Origin: an uncultured Desulfuromonadales bacterium
GTDB taxonomy: Bacteria; Desulfobacterota; Desulfuromonadia; Desulfuromonadales; Trichloromonadaceae
Length of the DNA stretch: 45,945 bases
NCBI GenBank assembly: GCA_945787465.1
Contig: CALZIZ010000015.1
Coordinates: forward strand, 1-45,945
Direction of reading: 5' to 3'
The notes under the pieces are model-generated. The model was not told the origin of the DNA and did not search any database. It was given only the letters and a program-made list of their open reading frames with translations. The position numbers and the translations under genes are program-made. This document shows positions 13,241 to 30,252 of this stretch, in pieces (the stretch's first letter is position 1; each line of letters begins with the position of its first letter).

Positions 13241-13350
13241 GGCGACCTCCCGAAGATGTTTCAGCGTTGCTTACCATACAATGTTAGCAGCGCCAGCGGC
13301 ACCGTCAACTGAAGGAGACGGCCTCGGCAAGGCAGCTCATGCCAATATCT

Positions 13351-14628: not shown

Positions 14629-15055
14629 CAAGGATACTCCCTCTTTCAGTAGCTATCGACCGGTCTGTGGCAAACGGAACATTACCCAGAGACCTATTGA
14701 CTACAACTTCTGTGCCATTGCAGCCCCTTAACCACAGGAGGCCTGCAACCGACGGCGTCGGATACCCTCAAGCAGCCATCTGATGCCGGCATATTTAGTC
14801 CATATCAACGGCTCGTTTGCCGGCCGCTAAAAAAGTGCCTGTCCGACTTGAGAGGGAAGCTCACCCTGCTATGATGTTAAGTAGTACAGGGCATCAGACG
14901 AACTGTCCCCTCCCCTTCATCAAGCCTTCGAAATTCTACCGACGACTCGACGTAAACGGCCTGAGCGATGCCCGAACCATACCTCCCTTTTCACCGGGGA
15001 CATATCACAGGCGACAAGGAGGCTATCGGACTGCCTCCAAGAGGAGGATGACACC
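14629..15055 (+). promoter_or_regulatory. Promoter and long structured leader of a small gene
   Basis: A sigma-70-like promoter: TTGAGA (14848-14853), 16 bp, TATGAT (14870-14875). That would give a leader of about 175 nt before the ATG at 15056. Near its end, GGAGGC (15018-15023) can pair with GCCTCC (15033-15038); the same CCTCC (15034-15038) can instead pair with the Shine-Dalgarno GGAGG (15043-15047) across an AAGA loop. The two hairpins are mutually exclusive. The rest shows nothing I recognise. Confidence 0.45.
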
Positions 15056-15244
15056 ATGGGCGAGCGGTTTGCCTTCAACATCAATGCGGAACTGTACGAA
15101 AACAAATTCGGCGAGCTGGCCATCAAGTTTACCGGAGAAAAGGTCTATGCCGAGGTTGGCACCGACTGGACGTCAAACCTGATGAGATGGGACAGGAAGC
15201 CCGCTCCTACCTCGGAGAAGTCTTCCACTAACCTGGATTCCTGA
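15056..15244 (+). CDS. Small protein, apparently frameshifted near its 3' end
   Basis: As it stands this encodes 62 residues from an ATG with an excellent GAGGAGG 8 nt upstream. Residues 1-42 look like a real, charged, soluble protein (ELYENKFGELAIKFTGEKV). After TSNL the reading becomes Arg/Trp/Pro/Ser-rich and ends inside a MITE. One frame over, the same DNA reads DEMGQEARSYLGEVFH and stops at TAA 15229-15231, immediately before the MITE, with codon use like the rest of the window. The simplest explanation is a one-base indel near 15181, by mutation or sequencing error; the original protein would be about 59 residues. Function unknown. Confidence 0.55.
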   Translation: MGERFAFNINAELYENKFGELAIKFTGEKVYAEVGTDWTSNLMRWDRKPAPTSEKSSTNLDS

Positions 15245-15395
15245 GGTCGGGGTGAAAAAAGCGTGTCAGTGCTTGGCCTGAATAAGTGTCTCAAAAAAAA
15301 TCTGAGGCGCACCCGCAGGTTCGTCGGTGATTTTTGGGACGCTTAGACAGGTCAATGATCTGAGCTATTTACCGGTCAGAACTCACGGATTCAGG
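15232..15395 (+). mobile_element. MITE-like repeat, copy 1
   Basis: A 164-bp copy of a family present three times here (others at 21508-21669 and 40076-40238). It starts CCTGGATTCCTGAG and ends CTCACGGATTCAGG, so the ends are imperfect inverted repeats (core CCTGRATCCGTGRG). There is no ORF. Its right end overlaps the 3' end of the malonyl-CoA decarboxylase gene. No target duplication is visible at this copy. Confidence 0.8.
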
Positions 15396-16796
15396 TTTTG
15401 CCACAAAGATTTTCTGCATACGCCCCTTGCGGCCCGGTTCGCGGGTTGTCGCCTGAAGCAGGTTGCTGACCTTGCGAGAAGAGACAATGCGCTTTTCGGC
15501 GGCATAGGCCTCATGATTTTTTTCCACCTCGTCGAGTTTATACAGGTAATTGACCATCAGCCCGCAGGACTCGTCCATCCCCTTGGGCGAGGTGTCCCCA
15601 AGCCAGTTCAGCCGCTCGATGCGGGCCCCGTTGCCCAGGTGAAAGCGCTCCACCGGGTCGTCGCGCAGGCGCTCGCAGACCTCCTCGTCCCGGTGCCAGT
15701 TGAGGCGGGCGAGAATCTCCTCGAGGCGCGGCGCGGTACCCAGGAGTTCGGCAGCGGCAATCACCGAGCGCCTGGGGCCCTCCTCGAACTCAGGCGCCTC
15801 GGCTCCGGTCAGGGTCCGGGTCAGCCAGCGGCGAAAGCCGGGGATCGGCGAGAGGGTGGAAAAGGTCGTGATGTTGGGGAATTCATGGTTGAGATCGTCG
15901 GCCACCTGCTTGATCAGAAAATGCCCGAAACTGATCCCCCGCAGCCCTTTCTGAGTGTTGGAGATGGAATAAAAAATCGCCGTGTCGGCCTCACTTGGAT
16001 CTATTTCGGGGCTGGCCTCGTCAAGCAGGGTCTGGATGTTGCCGGCAATGCCGTTGACCAGCGCGACCTCGACGAAGATCAGCGGTTCTTCAGGCATGCC
16101 GGGGTGAAAAAAGGCGTAACAGCGTCGGTCGGACTCGAGGCGGTTGCGCAGGTCCTTCCATGAATGAATCTGGTGGACCGCTTCGTAGGCGATGAGTTTT
16201 TCGAGCAGCGCCGCCGGCGAGTCCCAGGTAATGTGGCGAAGTTCGAGAAATCCGACATCGAACCAGGTTTCCAGAAGGCGCTTGAGTTCGGTATCGAGAC
16301 TTTTAAGCATCGGCTCCTCGTGGGCATAGTTGAGCAACTCGGCCCGCAGATCGATGAGAAACTTTGCCCCCTGGGGCAAATCATTGAACTGCTTGAGCAG
16401 GCGCAACCGCGGCGAGATCAGCACCTCGCGCAACCGCACTTCTGCCGTTAAATAGTCCTCGAGCCCCTCGGCCTGCTGCACCTGCCCGGCACAGCGAGCG
16501 AGTTCTTCGCGGTCGACGGCAAAATCCCTGGCCAGCAGTTCGAGAAACCGCCGGCGCCCCTCGGCATTGAGGGTCAGGTACATGTGCCCGAGGTGAGCCG
16601 CTCTGCGGCGCCCCGACACCTCCCCTCCCCGGGCCTCGAGGCAGACCCGCATCAACTGGCGCACCCTCTCGAGGTCATCGTCAGGCAGCTGGGCCTTGAC
16701 CACGGGCGGCTTCTGCGCATCGCGGCTGGAGCCGCCAATGCCCTGCCAGGCCTTGCGCAAGTTCCCCAAAGTATCCATGAACACAGAAGTATTCAT
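15369..16796 (-). CDS. Malonyl-CoA decarboxylase
   Basis: A 475-residue malonyl-CoA decarboxylase, which converts malonyl-CoA to acetyl-CoA and CO2. It has the N-terminal helical domain (about 40-180) and the GNAT-like catalytic domain. Seen motifs: HPGMPEEPLIFVEVAL (231-246), FYSISNTQKGLRGISFG (275-291) with the conserved Ser, and a C-terminal segment (S.KG...S.G.MVNYLY) typical of the family. AAGGAGA lies 5 nt before the ATG. The last eight residues (PESVSSDR) and the stop codon are encoded by the terminal repeat of MITE copy 1, so the original C-terminus has been replaced. In an anaerobe it may remove malonyl-CoA or serve malonate use; no malonate transporter or CoA-transferase is adjacent. 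Confidence 0.93.
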   Translation of the reverse strand: MNTSVFMDTLGNLRKAWQGIGGSSRDAQKPPVVKAQLPDDDLERVRQLMRVCLEARGGEVSGRRRAAHLGHMYLTLNAEGRRRFLELLARDFAVDREELARCAGQVQQAEGLEDYLTAEVRLREVLISPRLRLLKQFNDLPQGAKFLIDLRAELLNYAHEEPMLKSLDTELKRLLETWFDVGFLELRHITWDSPAALLEKLIAYEAVHQIHSWKDLRNRLESDRRCYAFFHPGMPEEPLIFVEVALVNGIAGNIQTLLDEASPEIDPSEADTAIFYSISNTQKGLRGISFGHFLIKQVADDLNHEFPNITTFSTLSPIPGFRRWLTRTLTGAEAPEFEEGPRRSVIAAAELLGTAPRLEEILARLNWHRDEEVCERLRDDPVERFHLGNGARIERLNWLGDTSPKGMDESCGLMVNYLYKLDEVEKNHEAYAAEKRIVSSRKVSNLLQATTREPGRKGRMQKIFVAKPESVSSDR

Positions 16797-17208
16797 TCTG
16801 TCTCCTTACTACAAGAATGACATATAGGTTGCCCTGAGCCGCTCCTTAAACCGGTGGCACTTTGCCTGGCATTTAACGTATACTGGCGCCATGTCGGTTT
16901 TTAAGGATGGTGAAACTGCAACCGAACGGCTGCCTAGAGGCCTGTTGCATGCCTAGGAGGCTGTCGAACTTGACGGACCGTAACGAGAAATTGGATGTTC
17001 GAGACCAGATTTTCGAGAATTTGAGAGCGAATAGCAGGGCTATTTGTCGAAAATTGTCGAGAGTATGGGCCGATCAGCCGATTTCGCAGTAGGTTCATGT
17101 TAAGCCCGACAGCCTCCTAGTGTATTAAATTTTATCGGACTTTGAGGCCGCGGCAAGGCGCCCGGTCCGGATCTTTCTAAAATTTTATCCCCAGGCTGGA
17201 AGAAGCCC
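16797..17208. other. Intergenic region between divergent genes
   Basis: It separates the divergent malonyl-CoA decarboxylase and formate dehydrogenase genes and carries a 168-bp MITE-like element (16953-17120). Outside that element I see no gene and no convincing -35/-10 pair. Confidence 0.4.
16953..17120. mobile_element. MITE-like element with 14-bp perfect terminal inverted repeats
   Basis: CTAGGAGGCTGTCG (16953-16966) is repeated in inverse at 17107-17120, and similarity continues inward (AACTTGAC versus GGCTTAAC). The 168-bp element has no ORF and is AT-richer than its surroundings. It is a different family from the three-copy element. Such ends suggest mobilisation in trans by an IS transposase not present here. 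Confidence 0.75.
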
Positions 17209-18063
17209 ATGACCAAGAATTCAGCCCATCAGGCCGACCGCCCCTCGATCTTCGCGCCACTTGACTGCCGCATCGAGGCGATCACCGAGCTGACGGCCCA
17301 GGAAAAGCTGTTTCGCCTGGCCCTGCCCGCAGGGGCCGAACTCGGCCACCGGCCCGGGCAGTTCGTACAGGTCTCGCTGCTCGGTTACGGCGAAGCGCCG
17401 ATTTCCGTCTCGTCCTCGCCGACCCGCAGCGGCTGCTTCGAGCTCGGGGTGCGTCGCGCCGGCAGCCTGACCTCGGCCCTGCACCGCATGCAGGTCGGAC
17501 AGAAGGTCGGCATCCGGGGTCCCTTCGGCCGCCCCTTCGAAACCGAAAAGATGACCGGCAAAGACCTGCTGCTGATCTCCGGAGGCTGCGGCATGGCTCC
17601 GCTGCGCTCGCTGATCCAGTACTGCGAGGACCGCCCGGAGCTCTTCGGCCGCCTGAGCATCCTCTACGGAGCCAAAAGCCCTGCGGATCTGCTGTTCAAG
17701 GACGATATCCGCCTCTGGGAGGCTTCGGAGCGCTTCGCCTGCAGCACCACCGTCGACCAGGCCGCCGGGCAAAGCTGCTACGAGGGTCAGGTGGGCCAGG
17801 TCACCAGGCTGATCCCGGCCCTCGAGGTCGAGCCGAAGCGCACCGTAGCGGTGGTCGTCGGTCCGCCGGCCATGTACCGCTTCGTCATCGATGCACTGAT
17901 GCGCAAGGGCCTTGGCCAGGAGCAGATCGTCGTCTCGTTGGAGCGCTACATGCGCTGCGGCATCGGCAAGTGCGGCCACTGCACCATCGACCATCTTTAC
18001 TGCTGCACCGATGGGCCGGTCTTCTGGCTCAACGAGATCAGCGGCCTGCCGGGGGCCCTATGA
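17209..18063 (+). CDS. FAD/NAD(P)-binding oxidoreductase subunit (HydG/AsrB-like)
   Basis: A 284-residue flavoprotein of the ferredoxin-NADP reductase superfamily, related to the gamma subunits of NADP-reducing sulfhydrogenases and to AsrB. The FAD-binding barrel has RPGQFVQVS and the motif APISVSSSP; the pyridine nucleotide domain has GGCGMAPLRSL. A C-terminal [2Fe-2S] motif uses Cys250, Cys255, Cys258 and Cys265/266. It is the first gene of a three-gene operon, with its stop overlapping the next start (ATGA). It probably passes electrons between NAD(P)+ and the iron-sulfur subunit encoded at 20096. Confidence 0.9.
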   Translation: MTKNSAHQADRPSIFAPLDCRIEAITELTAQEKLFRLALPAGAELGHRPGQFVQVSLLGYGEAPISVSSSPTRSGCFELGVRRAGSLTSALHRMQVGQKVGIRGPFGRPFETEKMTGKDLLLISGGCGMAPLRSLIQYCEDRPELFGRLSILYGAKSPADLLFKDDIRLWEASERFACSTTVDQAAGQSCYEGQVGQVTRLIPALEVEPKRTVAVVVGPPAMYRFVIDALMRKGLGQEQIVVSLERYMRCGIGKCGHCTIDHLYCCTDGPVFWLNEISGLPGAL

Positions 18064-20099
18064 AACGGACCCTCACCACCTGCCCCTATTGCGGCACCGG
18101 ATGCACCTTCTACCTGCTTGGCGACGACCAGGGGCGCCTGGTGGGTGTCGACCCAAGCACCAGCCACCCTGCCAGCCGCGGCAGTCTCTGCGTCAAGGGC
18201 TGGAACGCCCACGGCTTCGTGCAGCACCCCGATCGGCTGACCACCCCGCTGATCCGCCGCGGTGGTCGCCTCGAGGAGGCGAGCTGGGACGAGGCGCTGG
18301 AGCTTGTGGCGGGGCGGCTGAAGGACCTGGCACTGCGCCATGGCCCCGATGCGCTGATGTTTCTCGCCTCGGCCAAGGCCAGCAACGAAGAGAACTACCT
18401 GCTGATGAAGCTGGCCCGGGCGGTCTTTTCCACCAACAACGTCGATCACTGCGCTCGGCTCTGCCACTCCTCCACCGTCACCGGCCTGGCCGAAACCTTC
18501 GGCTCCGGGGCCATGACCAACTCCATAGCCTGCATCGACGAGGCCGACCTGATTCTGGTCACCGGCTCCAACACCACCGAGCAGCACCCGCTGATCGGCG
18601 CGCGCATCCTGCAGGCCGTGCGGCGCGGGGCGAAGCTGATCGTCGCCGACAACCGGCGCATCCGCCTGGCGCCCTTTGCCGATCTGCACCTGCGCCACCG
18701 CAACGGCAGCGACGTGGCCCTGTTCAACGGACTGATGCACGTGATCATCCGCGAAGGCTTAGAGGACCGGCATTTCATAAACAGCCGCACGGAAAACTTC
18801 GCCGCCCTCAAAGAAGCCGTAGCCGACTGGACGCCGCAAAAAGCGGCCGGGATCACCGGCCTCGCCCCTGGGCAGATCGTTGACGCAGCACGCCTCTTTG
18901 CCGCTGCCGACAAGGCGATGCTGGTCTATTCGATGGGCATCACCCAGCACAGCCACGGCGTCGACAATGTGCGCGCCATCGCCAACCTCGCCCTGCTGAC
19001 CGGCAACCTCGGGCGGCCCGGCACCGGGGTCAATCCCCTGCGCGGCCAGAACAACGTGCAGGGAGCCTGCGACATGGGCGCCCTGCCCAACCTGCTCACC
19101 GGCTACCAGAAGGTGAGCGACAAGGCGACGCGGGAATCGTTTGCCAGAGCCTGGGGCCTGCCCTGTTTGCCCCGGGCGCCGGGTGCCATGGCGACCCATG
19201 CCATGGACCAGGCCGCGGCAGGCAAAATGAAGGGCTTTTTCATCATGGGCGAAAATCCCATGCTCTCCGACCCCGACCAGGCCCATGTGCGCCAGGCCCT
19301 GGAAAGCCTCGAGTTTCTCGTCGTCCAGGACATCTTTCTGACCCAGACCGCAGAGCTGGCCGACGTGGTGCTGCCCGCCGCCTGTTATGCCGAAAAAGAG
19401 GGCACCTTCACCTCCACCGAGCGCCGCGTCCAGCGGGTGCGCAAGGCGATTGAACCTCCCGGGAAGGCCCGGGCTGACTGGGAGATCCTCTGCGAGATCG
19501 CCACACGGGCCGGTTACCCCGGGATGGATTACCCCGGCCCGGCAGAGATCATGGATGAGATCGCCGCGCTGACGCCCATATACCGGGGTATCGACTACCG
19601 GCGCATCGACGACCTGGGCCTGCAGTGGCCCTGCCCCGATGAGAGCCACCCCGGCACCGCGATCCTGCATGCGGAGCGCTGCACCCGGGGCCCCGGGCAC
19701 TTCAGCCCGACCGGCTACCGGCCGCCCGCCGAGCTGCCCGACGACGATTTCCCCCTGGTGCTGACCACCGGCCGCACTTATTTTCACTGGCACACCGGCA
19801 CCATGACCCGCCGCACCCACCTGCTTGACCGCGAGGAGCGTTTCTCCTTTGTCGAGATTCATCCCGAAGATGCCCGCCGTCTCGGGGTGCACGAACGCGA
19901 GGAGGTGCTGGTCGCCTCGCGCCGCGGCGAAATCAGGGCCCGGGCCCGGGTCACCGAGATGGTGGTCCCCGGGGTGATTTTCATGCCCTTTCACTTCGCA
20001 GAGGGTGCAGCCAACGTGCTGACCAACAACGTTCTCGACCCCGAGGCCGGCATTCCCGAGTACAAGGTCTGCGCGGCCCGCATCCGGAAAGCCCCATGA
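18060..20099 (+). CDS. fdhA: Molybdopterin formate dehydrogenase catalytic subunit (Cys type)
   Basis: A 679-residue molybdopterin oxidoreductase of the FdhF/FdhA group, oxidising formate to CO2 at a Mo or W bis-MGD centre. The N-terminal [4Fe-4S] site is Cys8, Cys11, Cys15, Cys44, followed by Lys46 (electron relay). The active site reads DHCARLCHSSTV: Cys135 stands where E. coli FdhF has Sec140, and His136 corresponds to its His141. The C-terminal MGD-binding domain (from about 560) has TTGRTYFHWHTGTMTRR. The size is like FdhF, without N-terminal ferredoxin extensions, so partners must supply further clusters. Start and stop both overlap their neighbours by 4 nt (ATGA), so translation is coupled. 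Confidence 0.93.
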   Translation: MKRTLTTCPYCGTGCTFYLLGDDQGRLVGVDPSTSHPASRGSLCVKGWNAHGFVQHPDRLTTPLIRRGGRLEEASWDEALELVAGRLKDLALRHGPDALMFLASAKASNEENYLLMKLARAVFSTNNVDHCARLCHSSTVTGLAETFGSGAMTNSIACIDEADLILVTGSNTTEQHPLIGARILQAVRRGAKLIVADNRRIRLAPFADLHLRHRNGSDVALFNGLMHVIIREGLEDRHFINSRTENFAALKEAVADWTPQKAAGITGLAPGQIVDAARLFAAADKAMLVYSMGITQHSHGVDNVRAIANLALLTGNLGRPGTGVNPLRGQNNVQGACDMGALPNLLTGYQKVSDKATRESFARAWGLPCLPRAPGAMATHAMDQAAAGKMKGFFIMGENPMLSDPDQAHVRQALESLEFLVVQDIFLTQTAELADVVLPAACYAEKEGTFTSTERRVQRVRKAIEPPGKARADWEILCEIATRAGYPGMDYPGPAEIMDEIAALTPIYRGIDYRRIDDLGLQWPCPDESHPGTAILHAERCTRGPGHFSPTGYRPPAELPDDDFPLVLTTGRTYFHWHTGTMTRRTHLLDREERFSFVEIHPEDARRLGVHEREEVLVASRRGEIRARARVTEMVVPGVIFMPFHFAEGAANVLTNNVLDPEAGIPEYKVCAARIRKAP

Positions 20100-21079
20100 A
20101 AGCCGCAACCCTTGAAGAACTGAAGCGATTTTTCGAGTCGCTGCAGAGCGATTTCGACCTGCGGGTTCCGGTGCTGCTGCCAGGCGACACCCGGGGCCTG
20201 GGCAGGCTTGACGAAGGGCCCCTGGCCCTCGAGGGCGGGCCTCTGCCCCGCAAGCCGACAGAGGTCTTCTTTCCCCAGGCCGAGCTGCTCTTCAGCGCCT
20301 GTTACGACGGCCCCCTGCAATTCGAAACGGCACCGCCAAAACCGCTGCTGGTCGTCGGCTTTACCGCTCAGGACTTGGCCTGCCTCGAATTCATCGACCG
20401 GTTTTTCCAAAGCGGCTACCGCGACGATGTCTACTTTCGCAAGCGCGACACTACCCTGGTTGTGGGCCTGGCCGGGCGCTGCGGAGAAGGCGGCGGGTTT
20501 CTGCCCATCGCCGGGGGCCGCTGCGACCTCGAACTGGTCAGCGACGGGCAGCGATTTCTGCCGGCGCCCTATTCGGCCGCCGGCAGGGCGCTGATTGAAA
20601 GGCTCGACTGTGCCGAGCACCGGGCCTCGCTGCAGACGCTGCAGACCGAGTCGGACAACCTGCCGACAGAAGAGGCCGAGCTGCTGGCCCAGGCCTCTCG
20701 GCTGCTGCGCGCCGGGCGGGTCCCCGAGAGTTTCTGGAACGACATCGCCGCCCGCTGCATCGCCTGCACCGGCTGCAACCTGGCCTGCCCGACCTGCACC
20801 TGCTACGGGGTCCAGGACTGGAGCTACGCCGGGCGCGTCGAGCGCAGCCGGCTCTGGGACTCCTGTCAGCTCGACGGTTTTATGCGTGAAGCCAGCGGCC
20901 ATAACCCCATGGGCACCGAGGCGCTGCGCACCAGGCGGCGCATCCACCACAAGCTCGCCGCCGACGTCGAGCGCTGGGGGCAGATCAGCTGCTTTCTCTG
21001 CGGTCGCTGCGACCGGGTCTGCCCCACCGGCATCGGCATCCTGGCCGTCGCCGGGGAGCTGGTGAGGCGCTATGCCTAA
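20096..21079 (+). CDS. 4Fe-4S dicluster electron-transfer subunit (HydB/AsrA-like)
   Basis: A 327-residue iron-sulfur protein resembling the beta subunits of sulfhydrogenases and AsrA of anaerobic sulfite reductase. The N-terminal 230 residues form the family's unlabelled alpha/beta domain. The C-terminus carries two cluster motifs: CIACTGCNLACPTCTC (about 222-237) and CFLCGRCDRVCPTG (about 301-314). It overlaps fdhA by 4 nt. With the FAD/NAD(P) subunit and FdhA it would make a soluble formate:NAD(P)+ oxidoreductase, with this protein as the wire between the catalytic and flavin subunits. That assembly is inferred from gene order. Confidence 0.87.
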   Translation: MKAATLEELKRFFESLQSDFDLRVPVLLPGDTRGLGRLDEGPLALEGGPLPRKPTEVFFPQAELLFSACYDGPLQFETAPPKPLLVVGFTAQDLACLEFIDRFFQSGYRDDVYFRKRDTTLVVGLAGRCGEGGGFLPIAGGRCDLELVSDGQRFLPAPYSAAGRALIERLDCAEHRASLQTLQTESDNLPTEEAELLAQASRLLRAGRVPESFWNDIAARCIACTGCNLACPTCTCYGVQDWSYAGRVERSRLWDSCQLDGFMREASGHNPMGTEALRTRRRIHHKLAADVERWGQISCFLCGRCDRVCPTGIGILAVAGELVRRYA

Positions 21080-21288
21080 ATTGTGCGATGCATTCAGCAA
21101 GGCAATAATCAGTTCTTGGTTTTGGGGCATAGCAGCGCCGGTGTTCGCAACAGCCGCGTAGACCGGTTGCGCAGCACCCCTGTTTGCAAGCGGGTCCAAC
21201 GAAGACGAGCCGTCTCTCAATTGCCGAACCGGTTCTAAGACTAAGCGCCCTTTGCGAACCCCATGCGGCGCAGCCAGAGTTTCTTTTG

Positions 21289-21320
21289 GTTACTTTTCTT
21301 TGCGCCCAAAGAAAAGTAAC
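21289..21320. repeat. REP-like palindrome GTTACTTTTCTTTG
   Basis: GTTACTTTTCTTTG (21289-21302), loop CGCC, CAAAGAAAAGTAAC (21307-21320). Palindromes of this kind, preceded by TTTCTTTTG, are a common dispersed intergenic repeat in proteobacteria. It is the first strong hairpin after the formate dehydrogenase operon and might end that transcript. Confidence 0.7.
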
Positions 21321-21507
21321 CCGGCTGTCGGGCCGGGACCCGACGGTTTTCAATGCTTTTTGGTGAGATTCTGAACAGTTAAAACCACTCTTGCCTATTT
21401 GCCTCCGACTGTCATGGGGGTTACAGTTTCCATAAAGATCGTTGCGCTAACATGAAAGGTACAAGTCATCCCAATTGCCGGTCGACCGGGGCTCGTCGGG
21501 GCATTAT

Positions 21508-21669
21508 CCTGGATCCGTGAGATCGGGGCGGGAAAAGAGTGTAAGGATTTGGCCAGAATAAGTGTTTCAAAAAATCTGAGGCGCACCCATAGGTTCGTCG
21601 GCGATTTTTTGAACGCTTTGGCAGGTCAATGACTTGCGCTATTGCCCGGTCAGAACCCACGGATTCAGG
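21508..21669 (+). mobile_element. MITE-like repeat, copy 2, with ATTAT target duplication
   Basis: A 162-bp copy with ends CCTGGATCCGTGAG and CCCACGGATTCAGG. ATTAT occurs immediately on both sides (21503-21507 and 21670-21674), a likely 5-bp target-site duplication. Inside, TTCAAAAAATC and GATTTTTTGAA are inverted, so the element can fold back on itself. It lies 66 bp upstream of the DUF3179 start codon. Confidence 0.85.
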
Positions 21670-21735
21670 ATTATACCTCCTCCCCCGGCCTTCGCCCCGG
21701 TCGCCGGCGCAAGATATCAGCCAGGGAGAAGTCAT

Positions 21736-22656
21736 ATGCGCCTTTCATTTATCCTGACAATTTTCATGATGGTCATGGCAGGTTCGGCTTTTGCGGGGTG
21801 GGATTTTTCCCGGCATGCCATACCCATCGATGAGATCCAATCCGGCGGTCCGCCCCGGGACGGCATCCCCGCGCTGACCAATCCGCAGTACGTTGCCGCC
21901 GAAAAAGCCGACTACATGGCCCCTGACGAGCAGGTGCTCGGGGTGTTTCGCAACGGCGTGGCGCGGGCCTACCCGACCCGCATCCTCTCCTGGCACGAAC
22001 TGGTCAACGACAGCTTCGGCGCCGAGCCGTTGCTGGTCAGCTGGTGACCGCTGTCCTTCGCGGGGGTCGTGTACTCCCGGAATGTTGGGGAAAAAGAGCT
22101 GAGCTTCGGCGTCTCGGGCATGCTCTACAAGGCCAACGTGCTGATGTACGACCATCAGAGCGAATCGCTCTGGTCGCAGGTTAAAAACCAGGCGGTCACA
22201 GGCCCGATGACCGGAACAGGACTAAGGGTGCTGCCATCGACCCTGACCACCTGGGAGAAATGGCGCAAAAAGCACCCCAAGACCATGGTCCTGTCTTTGA
22301 AGACCGGATATGCCCGCAACTACAGCCGCGACCCCTATGCGGACTACTACCGCAGCCGCCGGGGTATGTTCGGTTTTTTCAAGGAACTGGTTTCCGACTA
22401 CCCGGGTAAGGAGCTGGTGGCCGGGGTGGTTCTGAACGGAGCCGCAAAAGCCTACCCCCTTGCCGAACTGCGCAAGACCAAACGACTCAGCGACACCCTG
22501 GGGGGACAAAAACTCAGCTTCGCCTTCGATTCGCTGACGGGGGAGTTGACCATCGGCGACGAGGCAGGGACACCGGTGCCATTTATCAGCGCCTACTGGT
22601 TTGTCTGGAAGGAGATTTATCCGGACAGCACCCTGTTCAAAGCGCAGGCACAGTGA
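21736..22656 (+). CDS. DUF3179 family exported protein, probable selenoprotein
   Basis: A 306-codon frame interrupted once by TGA (22045-22047, codon 104). The start at 21736 has GGGAGAA 5 nt upstream and gives a clean signal peptide (RLSFILTIFMMVMAGSAFA). Before the TGA: AYPTRILSWHELVND...LLVSW; after it: PLSFAGVVYS, LSFGVSGMLYKANVLMYD, SLWSQ, VLSLKTGYARNYSRDPY, all typical of DUF3179. In relatives the W/Y-[Cys]-P-L position is a conserved Cys, exactly where the UGA falls. A hairpin CGGGGGT-CGTGT-ACTCCCG follows with its loop 20 nt after the UGA, meeting bacterial SECIS rules. I therefore read codon 104 as Sec; a nonsense mutation is the alternative. The family has no established biochemical function. 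A Crp/Fnr regulator follows. Confidence 0.78.
22061..22079 (+). promoter_or_regulatory. Candidate bacterial SECIS element (DUF3179 gene)
   Basis: CGGGGGT (22061-22067), loop CGTGT (22068-22072), ACTCCCG (22073-22079): seven pairs, one G-U. The loop has G at its second position and begins 20 nt after the UGA, within the accepted 16-37 nt range. Confidence 0.6.
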
Positions 22657-22762
22657 CGGAGAGGTTAACAAGGGGATAGAATTTTCAAATCTACAACTAA
22701 GTTTTTCGAGGTTTTGCAAGTCGGTAAAGATTTTTGAGGGCATCGAGGAGGAGCAACTCTGC

Positions 22763-23449
22763 ATGGATCAGAAAATCTGGTATCTGAAACGGGCCGACCT
22801 CTTTGCCGGCTTGAAGGAGGAGGAGCTTACAGAGCTCGCCGGGATCAGCGAGATGTTCCGCTGCGAGCGTAAACACCTTTTTTACCTTCCCGAGCAGCCG
22901 AGCGACATGGTTTACCTGGTCAAGGAGGGGCGCATCCGGCTGACCCGCCTGACCGCCGAAGGCAGGGAGCTGACTCTCGACATCCTCGGTCCCGGCGAAA
23001 TCTTCGGAGAGCTGGCTCTGGCCGAAGAAGAGCGCCGCTCGCACTACGCCCAGGCCCTTGAGTCCAGCCTGGTCTGCACCCTGTCCCGGGACAGATTCCT
23101 CGATTTTCTGCATCGTCACGAAGAGATGACCTATCGCCTGATCAAGCTGATCAGCTTTCGCCGCCGGGAGCTGGAGGCCCGTTATGAAGACCTGGCGTTC
23201 AAACCGGTCGCAGAGAGGATGGTCCTGACCCTGCTGCGCCTGGCCAAAAAGCAGGGGACAGAACAAGCCGGCGCAGAGGTCCGCTTGCCCCTCACGCAGA
23301 AAGATCTGGCCTACCTGATCGGCGCCACCCGTGAAGCCGTGGCCGAAGAACTGGCCGGCCTCAAACGGGAAAAGCTGGTAAAAACCTCCTACCGGGCGAT
23401 CATCCTCGCAGATTTGGCCGGGTTGAAGAAACGCTCAGCCCGGCCGTAA
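22763..23449 (+). CDS. Crp/Fnr family transcriptional regulator
   Basis: A 228-residue regulator. Residues about 10-125 are a cyclic-nucleotide-binding-like beta barrel (MVYLVKEGRIRLTRL, LGPGEIFGELAL), followed by the long dimerisation helix and a winged helix-turn-helix (LTQKDLAYLIGATREAVAEELAGLKREKLV). The only Cys residues, at about 36 and 102, do not form an FNR-type N-terminal iron-sulfur cluster motif. The ATG at 22763 is chosen over longer in-frame starts because GAGGAGGAG lies about 8 nt upstream and the domain begins directly after. It is 106 bp downstream of the DUF3179 gene on the same strand, so it may be co-transcribed with it. The signal and targets are unknown. Confidence 0.92.
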   Translation: MDQKIWYLKRADLFAGLKEEELTELAGISEMFRCERKHLFYLPEQPSDMVYLVKEGRIRLTRLTAEGRELTLDILGPGEIFGELALAEEERRSHYAQALESSLVCTLSRDRFLDFLHRHEEMTYRLIKLISFRRRELEARYEDLAFKPVAERMVLTLLRLAKKQGTEQAGAEVRLPLTQKDLAYLIGATREAVAEELAGLKREKLVKTSYRAIILADLAGLKKRSARP

Positions 23450-23469
23450 TGCAGAGGCGTCAGTTTAAA

Positions 23470-23497
23470 GGCGTGATTGGTGATTGGTAATCGGTGA
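23470..23497 (+). repeat. Heptamer tandem repeat (GTGATTG type)
   Basis: GGCGTGATTGGTGATTGGTA, continuing ATCGGTGA: about three degenerate copies of GTGATTG, just after the Crp/Fnr gene. Same class as the tracts at 9496-9529 and 37057-37082. Confidence 0.65.
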
Positions 23498-23573
23498 GGG
23501 GAAAAATGAACATATTCCCCCTCATCTGGGGACATCTGCAAGCCAATGCGCCGGCAGACTCAGCGATTCGGTA

Positions 23574-24449
23574 TTATTTCTTTCCCCGACCGGCGGTCTC
23601 CATATCCCGGTGCAACTCCTCGCGCAATCTTCGGGCAATGGGGCCGACCAGGCCCTGGTTGATGGTGAACTCATCCACCTTCACCACCGGCATCACCTCC
23701 AGGGAAGTCGAGGTGATGAAGACCTCATCGGAGAATTTCAGATCCTGAAGCTTATACTCCCCGGTAATGACCCGCAGGTTCATTTTTTCTTCGCAGAGCC
23801 GCATGATCGTAGAGCGCGTCACCCCCTCCAGAAGCCCTGTGGAAGCGTCAGGGGTAAAAACCCAATTATCCTTGGTCCAGAAGATATTCGATGAGGCCCC
23901 TTCGCAGATCTGGTGTTTGTTGTTCAGCATGATCACTTCAAAGGCCCCCGCCGCCTTGGCCTCGAGTTTGCCCAGCAGGCTATTGAGGTTGCTGATCGAT
24001 TTGATTTTCGGGCTGATTGCCTCCGGGGCATTTCTACGGGTTTGAGCCACATTCAGGGAAATCCCCTTGTCGTAGTGCGAATTTTCAAACCCCTGGAACT
24101 CTTTGGCGACAATCAGGCAGGTCAGATCATTCTCTATGGATCGCCGAAAACCGATCTGCCCCTTACCCCGTGTAACCGTGACACGATAATAGGCATTGGT
24201 CAGGTTGTTTTTTGCCTGCAACTCCATCAGGATCTTTTCCAGGTCCTGCTGGGAGAAGGTCATCGGGTAACAAAGTGCCCGGGCTGATTGCAAAAGCCTT
24301 TTATAATGTTCTGAAAATTGATAGAGCCGCCCCCCGACCGAGCGAAAACTCTCAAAGATCCCATCGCCGTACAAAAACCCCTGGTCGAAGGCCGAAACCA
24401 TTGCCTCATCGCTTTTTATGAGCTTTCCATTCAAAAAGACATAATCCAT
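23574..24449 (-). CDS. Class IV aminotransferase (ilvE/dat/pabC group)
   Basis: A 291-residue PLP-dependent fold-type IV enzyme. It begins MDYVFLNGKLI followed by FDQGFLYGDGIFES, the family signature. The PLP lysine is in PKIKSISNLN (about residue 155), and the cofactor/substrate motif CEGASSNIFW comes about 25 residues later; TSTSLEVMPV is the phosphate-binding region. Sequence alone does not separate branched-chain aminotransferase, D-amino acid aminotransferase and aminodeoxychorismate lyase. The start at 24449 is chosen because the family begins there; upstream starts (24497, 24500) add 16-17 residues without a better ribosome-binding site. It is isolated and convergent with the Crp/Fnr gene. 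Confidence 0.87.
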   Translation of the reverse strand: MDYVFLNGKLIKSDEAMVSAFDQGFLYGDGIFESFRSVGGRLYQFSEHYKRLLQSARALCYPMTFSQQDLEKILMELQAKNNLTNAYYRVTVTRGKGQIGFRRSIENDLTCLIVAKEFQGFENSHYDKGISLNVAQTRRNAPEAISPKIKSISNLNSLLGKLEAKAAGAFEVIMLNNKHQICEGASSNIFWTKDNWVFTPDASTGLLEGVTRSTIMRLCEEKMNLRVITGEYKLQDLKFSDEVFITSTSLEVMPVVKVDEFTINQGLVGPIARRLREELHRDMETAGRGKK

Positions 24450-24590
24450 AGTCTGCACCGGTGGGATGATTTTGTATTGAAAACAGGGAGGCTTCATCAA
24501 GGGTCATATGAACTTAACTTTATCTTAAACATAGGGGCCTGGAAAGTCCAAAAGAGCGGAATGACTGTGACCACAGCCTCCGGACGCACG

Positions 24591-24624
24591 AAAGGCCTCC
24601 CTGCAGCAAAGCAGAGAGGCCTTT
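24591..24624 (-). terminator. Probable terminator of the secreted-protein gene
   Basis: AAAGGCCTC (24591-24599) pairs with GAGGCCTTT (24616-24624), with CTGC/GCAG extending the stem inward. It lies 35 bp beyond the stop codon at 24659 on the minus strand. The U-run is short. Confidence 0.55.
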
Positions 24625-24658
24625 CATCAAGCATATTCCGCCAGCGGTATTATACGCC

Positions 24659-25099
24659 TTAACTGGGCACGTAAAGAAACCGGTCGACCAGCTGCTTGCC
24701 GGAAGCATCCACCTCGGCCTTGATCAGATAAGCCCCCGGGGTAGTGAGTTCCACATCGGTGGCGTATCCTCCCCCGGTAAAAACCGCCTCCAGCCGCTGT
24801 TCGGCGCCGTGGGCATCGACCAGGGTGTAGGTGACCCGAGCATTGCTGATCAGATCGCCATTGGGCCCCTTAATAAACAGCAAGAGCCCCGAGGCTGCGT
24901 CCTCCTGCTCGCCGCCATAGGCGGCCAGCCGGGCAAAGGGCTTGCGTTCGGCCTTTTTGACCATCATATATGCCAGGCTAAATCCAGAGAGCGTAGAAAT
25001 ACGGACCTCTTCCAGCCCGGAAACCATCGAAGCCAGAGAGTTTCCGCCGGCAAAAGTCAAAAGAACCATAGTCAGTACGGCAATACTTTTCTTAATCAA
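24659..25099 (-). CDS. Secreted protein of unknown function, TTG start
   Basis: A 146-residue protein with a signal peptide (IKKSIAVLTMVLLTFAGGNSLA) and a C-terminal beta-sandwich-like half: FIKGPNGDLISNARVTYTLVD, GGGYATDVELTTPGAYLIKAEVD. This layout resembles the YtkA/FixH-like and transthyretin-like periplasmic domains, but I do not claim membership. The start is taken as TTG at 25099, because AGGAG lies 8 nt upstream and the positively charged n-region follows directly; the next ATG (25069) would cut the signal peptide. It stands alone. Confidence 0.68.
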   Translation of the reverse strand: MIKKSIAVLTMVLLTFAGGNSLASMVSGLEEVRISTLSGFSLAYMMVKKAERKPFARLAAYGGEQEDAASGLLLFIKGPNGDLISNARVTYTLVDAHGAEQRLEAVFTGGGYATDVELTTPGAYLIKAEVDASGKQLVDRFLYVPS

Positions 25100-25688
25100 T
25101 TTGTTTTCTCCTATAGCTTTGATATCGGCCCCGGATTTCTGAACCGATCCTTGGCTGGACATTTAGCAGCAACCATGCCAGGAGGTTTTTCTCAACAATT
25201 ACAAGCCCTTACATGAAATACCATTTTAGATGGAGTGAAGTCTCTGAAAAATCGAGGGTTTTTCGTAGGCTATCTGCGACAACTGCTACCGGGATTTATT
25301 CCCAGCCCCCCTGAAGGCCCTCTCTCCCCGTCGCAAATCGGCTACAACATTAAAGTTACCCACATTTCCCCTGCCCGCAGAGGATCTCTCCCCGTGGATT
25401 TTTATTATATATATTCGGCCACTTGGGCCACTTGGGTCAGCATGAGACACAGTGGCGTCGCAAAATACAGACGAAGCTTTTCCCGACAGATTTACTTGCC
25501 TTTGTTGACTTTTTCAATCTCCACTATAATCTTTTATGTAATTTCGTCTAAACGGACAACCTCAGAGCTTGCAGATTTCGACTCTTCCGATTTCCAGATC
25601 CCCAGCCCCGGCCTGGTTTGGCCGGGGCTGACATACTCATACTCCCGGCCAGGACCTTCGGCCGGCCCAACCGATGGGAGGTTTGCCT
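25100..25688. other. Intergenic region, 589 bp, with CBS-gene promoter and leader
   Basis: On the plus strand, TTGTTG (25502-25507), 17 bp, TATAAT (25525-25530) is a good sigma-70-type promoter for the CBS gene. The leader then has a perfect 10-bp hairpin, AGCCCCGGCC / GGCCGGGGCT (25604-25629), and a second one, CCGGCC / GGCCGG (25645-25665), ending 10 bp before the Shine-Dalgarno GGGAGG (25676-25681). Positions 25160-25480 show nothing I recognise. Confidence 0.5.
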
Positions 25689-26132
25689 ATGAAAACAGTT
25701 AAAGAGGTCATGGACACCAAAGGAAATCAAATCTGGACGATAGAAGCGGACCGGACCGTTTTTAATGCGCTTGAGATAATGGCCGAAAAAGATGTTGGCG
25801 CCCTGTTGGTGCTTCAGAATGGTAAACTGGCCGGGATCATCTCGGAACGGGATTACGCTCGCAAGGTGATACTTAAGGGGGCCTCATCCCTGAAGACCCC
25901 GGTCAGCGAAATCATGACCTCAAAGGTGGCATATGTGACGCCCGAGCAGACTGTGGACGAATGCATGGCCCTAATGACCGAAAACCGTTGTCGTCATATG
26001 CCGGTTATGCAGCAAAATAAACTGGTCGGGATTATCTCCATCGGCGACCTGGTCAAAGCTTCGATTGCCGAAAAGGAATTTCTGATCGGTCAGCTCGAAA
26101 ACTACATCAGCGGGGATTTCACCACCGCTTGA
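25689..26132 (+). CDS. CBS-domain pair protein
   Basis: A 147-residue stand-alone Bateman module: two CBS domains (about 8-65 and 75-132). Each shows the usual strand-helix pattern, with VGALLVLQNGKLAGIISERDYARKV and CRHMPVMQQNKLVGIISIGDLVK. Such proteins bind adenosine nucleotides (AMP, ATP, SAM, NAD) and act as energy sensors or regulators of partner proteins; the ligand here cannot be read from sequence. GGGAGG lies 7 nt before the ATG. It is monocistronic, with its own promoter and a strong terminator just after the stop codon. Confidence 0.93.
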   Translation: MKTVKEVMDTKGNQIWTIEADRTVFNALEIMAEKDVGALLVLQNGKLAGIISERDYARKVILKGASSLKTPVSEIMTSKVAYVTPEQTVDECMALMTENRCRHMPVMQQNKLVGIISIGDLVKASIAEKEFLIGQLENYISGDFTTA

Positions 26133-26135
26133 AGA

Positions 26136-26172
26136 AAAAGACCGGGGCCGCAGAAGCGGCCCCGGTCTTTTT
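26136..26172. terminator. Bidirectional intrinsic terminator
   Basis: GACCGGGGCCGC (26140-26151), loop AGAA, GCGGCCCCGGTC (26156-26167), flanked by an A-run before and a T-run after. It lies between the convergent CBS (plus) and DUF2726 (minus) genes. Confidence 0.93.
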
Positions 26173-26225
26173 AAACCTTGAACAATCTATTAAATTAATA
26201 AAGCGGCAAAAGCTGCCCGGCCGAA

Positions 26226-27023
26226 TCAGGCCTCGGGAATCTTCAGAAGCCGACGGCAGCGGGGGTAATCGGTGCACACCCAGAAAAGCTTGCCCGAATG
26301 GGTGCCCTTGGTCACCCGGCGCCGCCGCATCGCTGCCCCGCAAGAGCCGCAGGTAGGCCCGGCGGGTTGCACCGGGTCGCTGGCAATTTCGGCCGCAGAA
26401 CCGTTTGCATCACCCAGTTGCCATTCCTCTTCGGGCTCCGCCGGAGCAGCTTCCAGACGGCCGAGCTGCCATCCAGGATGACCCTCGTTCTCGGCCCCCG
26501 ATTCCCCTTCCACCACGCTGAGCCCTAAGGCCTGGTTCAGCGCTTCCCGCACCTGCTCCGGGTCCCCCCCGGCAATTACAGGAATTTGGGCAATATCCAG
26601 AACCTCCCTCATGGAAGACATCCCTGAATCGGCCTGAGGAACAGCAAGGACGACGGCGGCGACGTCCAGGGTTTTACGGTCGCACACGATAAAATCGGCA
26701 ACCTGGCCCCGGAGCTTCTCCGTGGCCCTGCGACGGGACTTTTTACCCAGACCCGGGCAAAGGCAGACCAGTTCAGCCAGGGGCATTTTCCCAAACACCC
26801 GCCAGGGCTCCCCAAGCATCTCCTCAAGCTCTTCAAGAAGCTTGCGCTCGGCTTCAGAAAACAACTCCCGCTGCGGCTCGTAAGCCGCCTCGAGCTGAGC
26901 CTTCAGCACTCTCGAGCGGCTCACCAGGGCCATGGCCAACAGCACTAGCAGAATAAACAGGCCCGTAAGCAGCGCATTTTCAGGATCACTGAACCAGGCC
27001 CTCAGCCAGTCCTGAATACTCAT
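26226..27023 (-). CDS. Membrane-anchored DUF2726 protein with C-terminal zinc ribbon
   Basis: A 265-residue protein. Residues about 13-33 form one transmembrane helix (ALLTGLFILLVLLAMALV). A DUF2726 domain follows (about 50-175), a restriction-endonuclease-like fold: RKLLEELEEML, FIVCDRKTLDVAAVV. After an acidic linker, the last 45 residues form a topoisomerase-type zinc ribbon with CGSC and a later C-x5-C pair (WVCTDYPRCRRLL). The start at 27023 has GAGAGG about 8 nt upstream. The PD-(D/E)xK catalytic residues are not all evident, so it may bind rather than cut nucleic acid. It follows the PATAN and HDOD-GGDEF genes on the same strand after a 177-bp gap. Confidence 0.82.
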   Translation of the reverse strand: MSIQDWLRAWFSDPENALLTGLFILLVLLAMALVSRSRVLKAQLEAAYEPQRELFSEAERKLLEELEEMLGEPWRVFGKMPLAELVCLCPGLGKKSRRRATEKLRGQVADFIVCDRKTLDVAAVVLAVPQADSGMSSMREVLDIAQIPVIAGGDPEQVREALNQALGLSVVEGESGAENEGHPGWQLGRLEAAPAEPEEEWQLGDANGSAAEIASDPVQPAGPTCGSCGAAMRRRRVTKGTHSGKLFWVCTDYPRCRRLLKIPEA

Positions 27024-27200
27024 GACCATGCCTCTCCGAATCGCGAAGACATCGCCCGTTCTGGGCCCGGGGCCCAAACGCCAGAACGGCCATACTTTGG
27101 TTTCACCATCTTATTCTCCGGGAGTCAAAAGGTAATTCGCACAATCGGCGCTTATTATGACACAATAACAAAGGCCTTCCAATACCCAGAAGTTGTATGA

Positions 27201-27695
27201 CTATACCAAACGGGAAGTGTCAACGGGGTTGATGCGACAGGCCTGCTCCAGGGCTCCTTCAACCTCGAGATGCACAGGTCCCTTGAGAATCCCCTCGGGC
27301 AGGCAGGTATCAAACTCCAGGGTTCCCCGCTCCCAGCTCAGGGCATCGGCCAGGGCAATGATCACCAGTTGCGACAGGGCCGTCTCCAGAGACTGCTTGT
27401 CGAACACCCCCGCCTCAATCAGGTCGCCGGTAAAGCGCCCCCCCCGGCCACGACTCTCAACCAGCAGCGATTGCATGCGCTTCAGGTCGAGACAGCCGAT
27501 ATCGGTGAGAAATTCACCAAAGCGCTCCCCGGGCTGGGTCGAAGTCACAAAGATAATTTTGCCGTTTCTAAAATAAAAGGATTTTTCAATCCCGTCCTGG
27601 CTCAAACGAAGAGTGCCGGTCTTGGCCAGGGCTTCGGCTCCTGAAACGACTTCTTTAAGGGAGACCAGGCTCAGGTCACCGGTTATTTTTGCCAC
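27201..27695 (-). CDS. Stand-alone PATAN (DUF4388) protein
   Basis: A 164-residue single-domain DUF4388 protein: ITGDLSLVSLKEVVSGAEAL, GTLRLSQDG and FYFRNGKIIFVTST match the N-terminal half of the PATAN-HDOD protein at 13351-14628 along the whole length. The domain is thought to mediate protein contacts in signalling systems. The start is GTG (27693-27695); the Shine-Dalgarno is weak. It lies 49 bp after the HDOD-GGDEF gene, so together they look like a split version of the fused PATAN-HDOD design. Confidence 0.82.
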   Translation of the reverse strand: MAKITGDLSLVSLKEVVSGAEALAKTGTLRLSQDGIEKSFYFRNGKIIFVTSTQPGERFGEFLTDIGCLDLKRMQSLLVESRGRGGRFTGDLIEAGVFDKQSLETALSQLVIIALADALSWERGTLEFDTCLPEGILKGPVHLEVEGALEQACRINPVDTSRLV

Positions 27696-27744
27696 GTCTT
27701 GCCGCTCTTTCAGAAAAGGGAAAAAGTAACTTCTTCACCGACCA

Positions 27745-29304
27745 TCAACCACCCAGCTCGCCGGCGGTCACCCGGTTGCGGCCATTATGCTTCGAGTGAT
27801 AGAGGGCCTTGTCGGTGGCCTCGATAATCTGCGCTTTTTGCATGACGCCCAGTTCTGGCAGATAGGTAATACAGCCGATGCTGATGGTGGCCCGAATTTC
27901 AACCCCGTCGCAGACGGTCACCGTCTGCTCGATGGCCCTGCGCAACCTCTCGGCCATAACCTTGGCCCCGGTGGCATCGGTTTCCGGCAGCACGATGGCG
28001 AACTCCTCCCCGCCGTAGCGCGCGGCAATATCCGAGGTGCGGGAATATTTCAACACCTTGGCGCTGAAGGTCTTCAATACCAGGTCCCCCGCCGGGTGGC
28101 CGTAGGTATCGTTGACTTTTTTGAAGTGATCGATGTCAAAAAGGATCAGGGAAAAAGGCCGCTTGTAGCGCCCCGCGCGACTGAGCTCCTTGTCCATCAG
28201 CTCCTGGAAATACCTGTGATTGTAAAGCCCGGTCAGCCCGTCGCGAAAGGCCATCTCCCGCAGTTTTTCGTTGGCCTCCATCACCTCCTGGGCCAGTCGC
28301 TCGGCCTTTTCCTTGGCCTGCTTGAACTCCATGACCAGCTGCTCGTAAGACAGGTTCAGCTTGCCCAGCTCTTCGTTGGCCTCTTGAAGGATCTGGGAGA
28401 AGGGGCGCATATCGCCGGCGTCGATTTCAAAAGAGGAGAGGATCTCGATACTCTTTTCGGCCACCGCATCGATGAGCGCCTCTATCCGCTCAGGGGCAAT
28501 CTTGTATTTCTGCTCGAGGATCAGGTTGACCTCGCGGATTTTCTCACCGCTGCGCGATCCGTGATAGACTGAGGATATCTTATCCGAGAGGCTGAGCACC
28601 TCAGTGGCAAGCTGCCATGACTGGGGGGCCTGATCCACCCGATGGTGGTAGCGGATCGGTTCGAGGATATTTTCGGGCAGCGACCAGCGACGCAGTGCCT
28701 CGGCGCCAAGGGTCGAATGATCGAAACCGAAAATTTGTTCTTCGACCTCGGCAATCGACCTCCCGCTCACCTGATTTTCCTCTAAAACCTTGAGATAGTC
28801 ATTGGGCCGACAAAAATACATCAGGGCAATGCCGATATCCTGCAGCAGGGCAGAAACAAAAGTGTCGTCGCTGCGAAACCCGACCAGTTTCCCGATGAGC
28901 TCGGCACCGACCGCTGCGGTAATCGAGCGCTTCCAGAAAAAATCGAAATCAAAGCCCCCTTCGCTATCGCGACGCATCTCGGTGGCAATCACAAAGGACA
29001 GGGCGATGTTCTTGAGCACATCGGCCCCCAGAACGCTCAGGGCCTTTTCGATGCTGGTCACCGGAAAGCTCAGGGCATAGAAAGAAGAGTTGGCCACCTT
29101 GAGAATTTTCGCGGTCAAGGCCGGGTCGGCAGAAATAATCCGCGCCAGCTCGCCAAAGGATTTATCATCCTTCTTGACTACGTCAAGGATTTGAACGGCA
29201 ATCACCGGCGGCGACGGCAGCTTGACATTGCCCTGAAAGAAACTGTCCATGGGGCTCGCTTGTTCTGCGCGCGATTCATTTTGAATGTTTTCTTGCCCAG
29301 ACAT
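27745..29304 (-). CDS. HDOD-GGDEF protein (probable diguanylate cyclase)
   Basis: A 519-residue cytoplasmic protein. Residues about 25-225 are an HDOD domain (LPSPPVIAVQILDVVKKDD, LTAKILKVANSSFYAL, ALLQDIGIALMYF). A coiled coil follows (about 300-345), then a GGDEF domain (about 350-510) with DGLTGLYNHRYFQ, FDIDHFKKVNDTYGH and the active-site GGEEF. The active motif is intact, so it should make cyclic di-GMP from two GTP. No RxxD product-inhibition site is evident in the expected place. The ATG at 29304 has GAGAGG about 10 nt upstream; a longer in-frame start (29349) adds 15 residues before the domain. It is the first gene of an operon with the PATAN protein. Confidence 0.92.
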   Translation of the reverse strand: MSGQENIQNESRAEQASPMDSFFQGNVKLPSPPVIAVQILDVVKKDDKSFGELARIISADPALTAKILKVANSSFYALSFPVTSIEKALSVLGADVLKNIALSFVIATEMRRDSEGGFDFDFFWKRSITAAVGAELIGKLVGFRSDDTFVSALLQDIGIALMYFCRPNDYLKVLEENQVSGRSIAEVEEQIFGFDHSTLGAEALRRWSLPENILEPIRYHHRVDQAPQSWQLATEVLSLSDKISSVYHGSRSGEKIREVNLILEQKYKIAPERIEALIDAVAEKSIEILSSFEIDAGDMRPFSQILQEANEELGKLNLSYEQLVMEFKQAKEKAERLAQEVMEANEKLREMAFRDGLTGLYNHRYFQELMDKELSRAGRYKRPFSLILFDIDHFKKVNDTYGHPAGDLVLKTFSAKVLKYSRTSDIAARYGGEEFAIVLPETDATGAKVMAERLRRAIEQTVTVCDGVEIRATISIGCITYLPELGVMQKAQIIEATDKALYHSKHNGRNRVTAGELGG

Positions 29305-29718
29305 GATGAAATGCCTCTCAAATTCCAGAGAAAACCGGGCTTGTGACAAAAACCGGGCGTTCTCTTATCCACACGGTTGACCATCCTGCTCTACGGACTG
29401 GCCGAAGATTGTAATTTTAAATCGTCAAGGGGATATTGACTGCGGGGATTGATTGTGCAACAAGAGTGCCGTCGACTCCCTTGCCCCCGGGGGCAAAGGA
29501 CGTCCCTTGACAAGAGCAGGGGTTGCTTTGTTAATATTGGCATTGGCCAAATCTTTATTAGACGAAACGACGAATTGGTGCTATTTACTTGAAACTTAAT
29601 AATTCCTGACGGGCTTCAGGGTTCCGGCGTCTTTCGATCCATGAACTTCTGGTGGACCTTTTGACTCCGGGCACCCCCCTCAACCCGCATTTTTGCAGTA
29701 GAGGTTTACTAGACAACG
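29305..29718. other. Intergenic region between divergent genes
   Basis: A possible plus-strand promoter: TTGACA (29507-29512), 18 bp, TTAATA (29531-29536), about 185 bp before the SHOCT gene. Otherwise I see nothing. Confidence 0.4.
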
Positions 29719-30252
29719 ATGTCGGAACCGAAAGAAAAACAAAAAGGTATATTCAGCAGTATCTTCTTCACCTATTTCATCCTCATCTTCCACGGCCTGC
29801 TGATCGTCGGACTGGCTTTCCTGGTGGTCTTCTTCCGTGGCGTGGTTGAATACATGGAGTGGATCGTAGGCGGCGGCATTACCCTGGTGCTGCTGTCCGG
29901 GTTCCTTTTCTACCGCAAGCTCAAAAAAAGCAACCGCGACCTGCGTGATATCATCAACGACCCGGCCTTCAAGGGCAAATCCCTGGAGATCAGCTTTCTC
30001 GGCGGAGTCGCTTCGGTTAAAGTCGGCAGCGCGCCGGAGCAATCACCGGCCGCCCTGGCCCACGACGTCTCCACGTCTGTCCAGCAGCTTGAAGACCCCG
30101 AAACCGTGCGAATCCGCGACCTCGGTCGACTGGCCCACCTGCTCGAACAGGAGCTGATCACCAAGGAGGAGTACGAACAGCTGAAAAAAGACCTCCTTCA
30201 CCAGGCAAAGCGACCGGCAGCCACTGCAGGCCCTGGGGCCGGACGCCGCTGA
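29719..30252 (+). CDS. Two-TM membrane protein with C-terminal SHOCT domain
   Basis: A 177-residue protein. Two hydrophobic segments (about 14-39 and 48-64) form a membrane hairpin, followed by a basic cytoplasmic segment. The C-terminus has a SHOCT-like helix pair: IRDLGRLAHLLEQELITKEEYEQLKKDLL (in parts, residues about 131-160). SHOCT motifs are short oligomerisation or adaptor modules; no enzymatic role is expected. The start codon has only a distant GAGG (about 14 nt), so its initiation signal is weak. It is monocistronic, divergent from the HDOD-GGDEF gene. Confidence 0.72.
   Translation: MSEPKEKQKGIFSSIFFTYFILIFHGLLIVGLAFLVVFFRGVVEYMEWIVGGGITLVLLSGFLFYRKLKKSNRDLRDIINDPAFKGKSLEISFLGGVASVKVGSAPEQSPAALAHDVSTSVQQLEDPETVRIRDLGRLAHLLEQELITKEEYEQLKKDLLHQAKRPAATAGPGAGRR

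Follow-up and report, generated by a model that had tools for sequence, protein, structure and literature searches.

The DUF3179 gene at 21736-22656 (+) of the window, by which we mean the whole stretch of 45,945 nucleotides that was analysed, very probably encodes a selenocysteine (Sec)-containing protein. The predicted reading of its in-frame UGA (22045-22047) as Sec, proposed in the first-pass annotation, is strongly supported by recurrence of the codon in many genomes, an invariant Sec/Cys column, selection downstream of the codon, a covarying hairpin and the presence of the Sec machinery. The gene adds a well-supported new member, with some new anatomical features, to a selenoprotein family that had been catalogued before, and DUF3179 is a family without a known reaction. 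The features assigned are listed below.

21723-21729 (+): AGGGAGA, likely ribosome-binding site, 6 nt 5' of the ATG (from the sequence)
21736-22656 (+): DUF3179 gene, very probably a selenoprotein gene, 306 residues with Sec104, terminal stop TGA 22654-22656 (ORF reading, PF11376)
21736-21795 (+): putative signal peptide, residues 1-20 (MRLSFILTIFMMVMAGSAFA), putative cleavage after AFA (inspection)
21913-22080 (+): internal repeat 1, residues about 60-115, with WHExxND and Sec104 (profile comparison, model)
21994-21999 (+): invariant His87-Glu88 of WHExxND, candidate active-site residues (invariant in 42 sequences)
22045-22047 (+): in-frame UGA, predicted Sec, residue 104 (UGA or Cys codon at this column in 42/42 homologues; UGA in >30 loci)
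22061-22079 (+): bSECIS-like hairpin, 7 bp, loop CGUGU 22068-22072 with G as the second loop base (pairing, covariation, folding of the piece alone)
22399-22566 (+): internal repeat 2, residues about 222-277, degenerate, without Sec/Cys and without WHExxND (profile comparison, model)

The ORF starts with ATG and its sole internal stop is the TGA at 22045-22047, which on read-through becomes residue 104 in the context LLVSW-U-PLSFAGVV. That a single DUF3179 protein is split only by this TGA was confirmed by the PF11376 (DUF3179) profile, which matched across the TGA (residues 41-266, 270.9 bits, E = 1.9e-80) well above its curated cut-off of 27 bits, and a profile search of the source genome gave this same match as one hit with one TGA inside. 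A hydrophobic N-terminus recurs in relatives, and the product would be secreted, probably into the periplasm. Gene finders will cut such genes in two, and most members are therefore probably mis-annotated.

The UGA recurred widely among relatives. Of 277 genomes of the class searched with PF11376, 27 gave a match; 20 of these, besides the genome of the window, have a DUF3179 frame that is open apart from exactly one TGA, and wherever an intact sequence was read the TGA was located at the same W-U-P-L. Further members from many more families were found in 395 genomes of the phylum, and a contig search added Sec records from Geothermobacter hydrogeniphilus HR-1 (L048), a Geoalkalibacter MAG and a Deferrisomatales MAG. 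Members with UGA at the same alignment column, which the first-pass annotation had suggested looking for in other genomes, were found at more than 30 loci. Its statement that the UGA stands where relatives carry Cys-Pro-Leu was right for the distant relatives, but not for the near ones, all of which carry UGA where read. Cys-type records came from Myxococcota, Binatota and Verrucomicrobiota. In an alignment of 42 sequences, column 104 was invariantly Sec or Cys, and the other invariant residues were His87, Glu88, Asn91, Asp139 and Trp146. A tree of 49 proteins required at least three changes between Sec and Cys, with 33 of the 35 Sec members grouping together and two (L040 and L066) placed elsewhere on long branches. 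Extra stops were seen in a few sequences: L065 has an in-frame TAG at a usually conserved Gln, the fragment L041 from the class search has a TGA and two TAG codons, and L068 has a second in-frame TGA. These could be errors, decay or recoding.

Selection was analysed on both sides of the UGA. For ten pairs of Sec members, Nei-Gojobori dN/dS 3' of the TGA ranged from 0.05 to 0.29 and was similar upstream, the ratios being approximate because several dS values were near saturation; the closest pair (L020/L021, dS 0.14) gave 0.115 downstream of the TGA.

The 7-bp hairpin with loop CGUGU that had been noted after the UGA is real, and the 20 nt given for it is the distance from the UGA to the loop; the stem starts at 13 nt and the loop G lies at 22 nt, with the arms 22061-22067 and 22073-22079 paired. 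The rule for bSECIS elements is 16-37 nt, with a G as the first or second base of the loop. The window hairpin, which lies just 3' of the UGA, has its G at the second of these loop positions. When folded alone, the hairpin piece gave -9.1 kcal/mol (z = -3.0, with 0/200 shuffles as good), and a 54-nt piece beginning with the UGA, when folded by itself, preferred a different structure. Single-sequence folding is therefore no proof of the hairpin, and the proof is comparative; we counted the alternative fold as a weakness of single-sequence folding only, and during translation the 5' part of the 54-nt piece would probably sit inside the ribosome. Standard pairs filled 93.3% of the seven stem cells across 34 distinct Sec loci, compared with 41.6% at the corresponding position of 11 Cys homologues, and sliding the stem lowered the paired share to 31-61%. 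The covariation score was 0.248 against 0.112 for shuffled alignments (0/500 as high), and 14 stem cells had changed on both sides where 4.2 were expected (0/500 shuffles reached 14). Most of the double changes fell in one pair, columns 21/31 (AU, GU, CG, UA and UG), in which the third codon position of a Gly covaries with a Ser/Ala codon opposite. Since the shuffles do not preserve the relatedness of the sequences, the case for a SECIS element rests also on the contrast with the Cys homologues and on the slid controls. An Rfam scan of window positions 15000-30000 gave no match to a SECIS family, its sole match being a sub-threshold L20 leader.

The Sec machinery was found in the source genome. 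Contig C50 carries together selA (620 bits, C50:11526-12896), selB (377 bits, C50:9430-11298) and a selD with its own in-frame TGA (C50:8320-9246), and tRNA-Sec is encoded elsewhere (74.6 bits, C94:17861-17952). A second selD lies on C385, and both selD genes (L123 on C50 and L124 on C385) have one in-frame TGA; as the source assembly has an estimated contamination of 6%, one of the two may be foreign. tRNA-Sec scored above the cut-off in 44/52 genomes with DUF3179, Cys genomes as well as Sec genomes, so that its presence does not discriminate between them. Seven Sec-bearing genomes gave no tRNA-Sec match over the cut-off; several of these are incomplete, and filtering was stricter in the many-genome search. 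Three findings had been named in advance as counting against Sec, namely a genome lacking the machinery, a UGA confined to one strain and mutations accumulating downstream; we found instead SelA, SelB, SelD and tRNA-Sec in the genome, the UGA in many genomes, and purifying selection 3' of it.

Two other genes of the window touch on selenoproteins. A second probable selenoprotein, thioredoxin-like, is located at 12671-13270 (-), with a TGA at 13137-13139 (-) in NPN-U-IGC (UxxC) and a match to PF13098 on read-through (E = 8e-7); its TGA is probably the first in-frame UGA implied where the first-pass annotation calls that of DUF3179 the second. The gene at 17970-20099 (+) encodes a formate dehydrogenase alpha subunit (TIGR01591), which we take to carry Cys (CARLCHSS) rather than the Sec that many of its relatives carry.

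Two other explanations of the in-frame UGA were considered. In favour of a nonsense mutation in a pseudogene, or of an assembly error, annotation pipelines would see two broken ORFs here. However, many independent genomes share this TGA at this codon, among them that of a named strain and one (G042) that is a single contig with an estimated completeness of 100%, and the low dN/dS shows that selection persists 3' of it, which neither a pseudogene nor an assembly error can explain; on this recurrence and selection we ruled out both, and regard the chance of either as negligible. Reassignment of UGA to a standard amino acid (Trp or Gly) in this organism would likewise have an in-frame UGA translated, but TGA is also the terminal stop of the DUF3179 gene itself, genes nearby (17970-20099, for example) read open under table 11 without any internal TGA, distant homologues have Cys at the column and never Trp or Gly, and the genome encodes the Sec machinery. 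Reassignment was ruled out on these grounds and is extremely improbable. The reading as Sec is thus retained: directed by the bSECIS hairpin that starts 13 nt after it, the UGA at 22045-22047 would be decoded by SelB with Sec-tRNA, and the resulting precursor of 306 residues, with Sec104, would be exported by means of its N-terminal signal peptide.

We analysed the architecture of the protein further by profile comparison and an AlphaFold2 model, in which residue 104 was entered as Cys (mean pLDDT 92, pTM 0.88). The two repeats matched each other in profile comparison (E about 1e-14) and have their strands and helix in the same order in the model. By this comparison the predicted mature protein is an internal duplication, with Sec, the invariant His-Glu and the Asn-Asp in the first half only. 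The mature part has no Cys in any main-clade Sec member read, leaving Sec as the only chalcogen residue, whereas the Sec site of Cys homologues holds either one Cys or a CxxC. Searches of the PDB gave no match to the model by fold at E <= 0.001 and none by sequence at E up to 10. A Foldseek search against viral models gave one convincing match, the uncharacterised Indivirus ILV1 protein A0A1V0SD44 (E = 4.4e-10, TM 0.72 by target length), suggesting that a giant virus may possess a DUF3179-like fold; WWE-domain proteins matched too weakly for use.

It is reasonable to regard Sec104 as a catalytic or metal-binding residue. We favour, with somewhat better than even confidence, a secreted redox enzyme with one selenol, a reading suggested by the exchange of Sec and Cys at this site. 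Sec104 would act as a nucleophile or electron carrier, probably helped by His87/Glu88, and since the mature protein has no cysteine it could not form an intramolecular selenenyl-sulfide; it would instead be re-reduced by an external thiol or reductant. A role as metal ligand fits nearly as well, although we consider it the less probable, at roughly one chance in three. Sec104, together with His87 and residues close by, would then bind, for example, copper or mercury, making the protein a secreted metal carrier or detoxifier and not a redox catalyst. Consistent with such a role, a soft ligand stands beside an invariant His-Glu pair, and a minority of loci, from several phyla and with DUF3179 of both the Sec and Cys types, encode VTT membrane proteins, MerA-like flavoprotein disulphide reductases or both at a distance of no more than about 6 kb. 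However, only 8 of about 48 loci showed this association, which is absent from the window, MerA-like flavoproteins are common, and the main clade lacks the second Cys that many soft-metal sites use. The VTT/MerA-like neighbourhood is thus a lead for the metal role and no more. SDR genes were found downstream of DUF3179 in five loci, and no conserved operon that would name a substrate or reductant was seen across the loci compared; we therefore rejected the assignment of a function from operon context. The many independent Sec members, the invariant Sec/Cys and the Cys-free mature protein of the main Sec clade point to residue 104 with His87/Glu88 as the place to probe.

The suggestion that DUF3179 might be a newly recognised selenoprotein family was not upheld, as the family is already tabulated in two reviews. 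A 2022 review (PMC9312934) lists a 'DUF3179 domain-containing protein' (pfam11376, UxxC/T) among selenoproteins and credits it to Zhang and Gladyshev 2007 (doi 10.1093/nar/gkm514), and a 2026 review (PMC13188914) again tabulates PF11376 as a selenoprotein family. The window protein has U-P-L-S in place of the tabulated motif. Three residues after Sec, the main clade has A, S or T (UPL[A/S/T]), L040, L066 and L136 have C, as do L131 (UAEC) and L132 (UPSC), and short forms with a single repeat (L127-L130, L133) have V, so that the tabulated UxxC/T is too narrow. The short forms are DUF3179-like Sec proteins (AYUPLVDLAAVYSR) that apparently end after the first repeat, and the divergent DUF3179-like L131 and L132 apparently represent further Sec lineages. 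More tentatively, the UPL[A/S/T] clade may be a distinct secreted selenoenzyme, cysteine-free and duplicated, with an unsolved fold, whose lone selenol without an internal partner would possibly carry out an undescribed selenoprotein reaction, although we give this less than an even chance.

Among known systems, the 1-Cys thiol/selenol enzymes (1-Cys peroxiredoxins) resemble the window protein in the way they work only, having one chalcogen and no internal resolving Cys. The window protein does not belong to that family: it has no sequence or fold match in the PDB, and those searches revealed neither a 1-Cys peroxiredoxin nor a thioredoxin fold. Cys-type DUF3179 proteins (for example L053, L054 and L018) share the fold family, WHExxND and Cys-Pro-Leu at the Sec column, but have Cys for Sec and no SECIS-like hairpin, and some Cys-type members, unlike the window protein, have CxxC that would allow a disulphide. 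The tabulated DUF3179 selenoproteins belong to the same Pfam family, with Sec at the family's conserved Cys. The window protein differs from them in its UPLS, and its clade in UPL[A/S/T], which places UxxS, UxxA and UxxT beside UxxC/T, and its mature part is free of any Cys.
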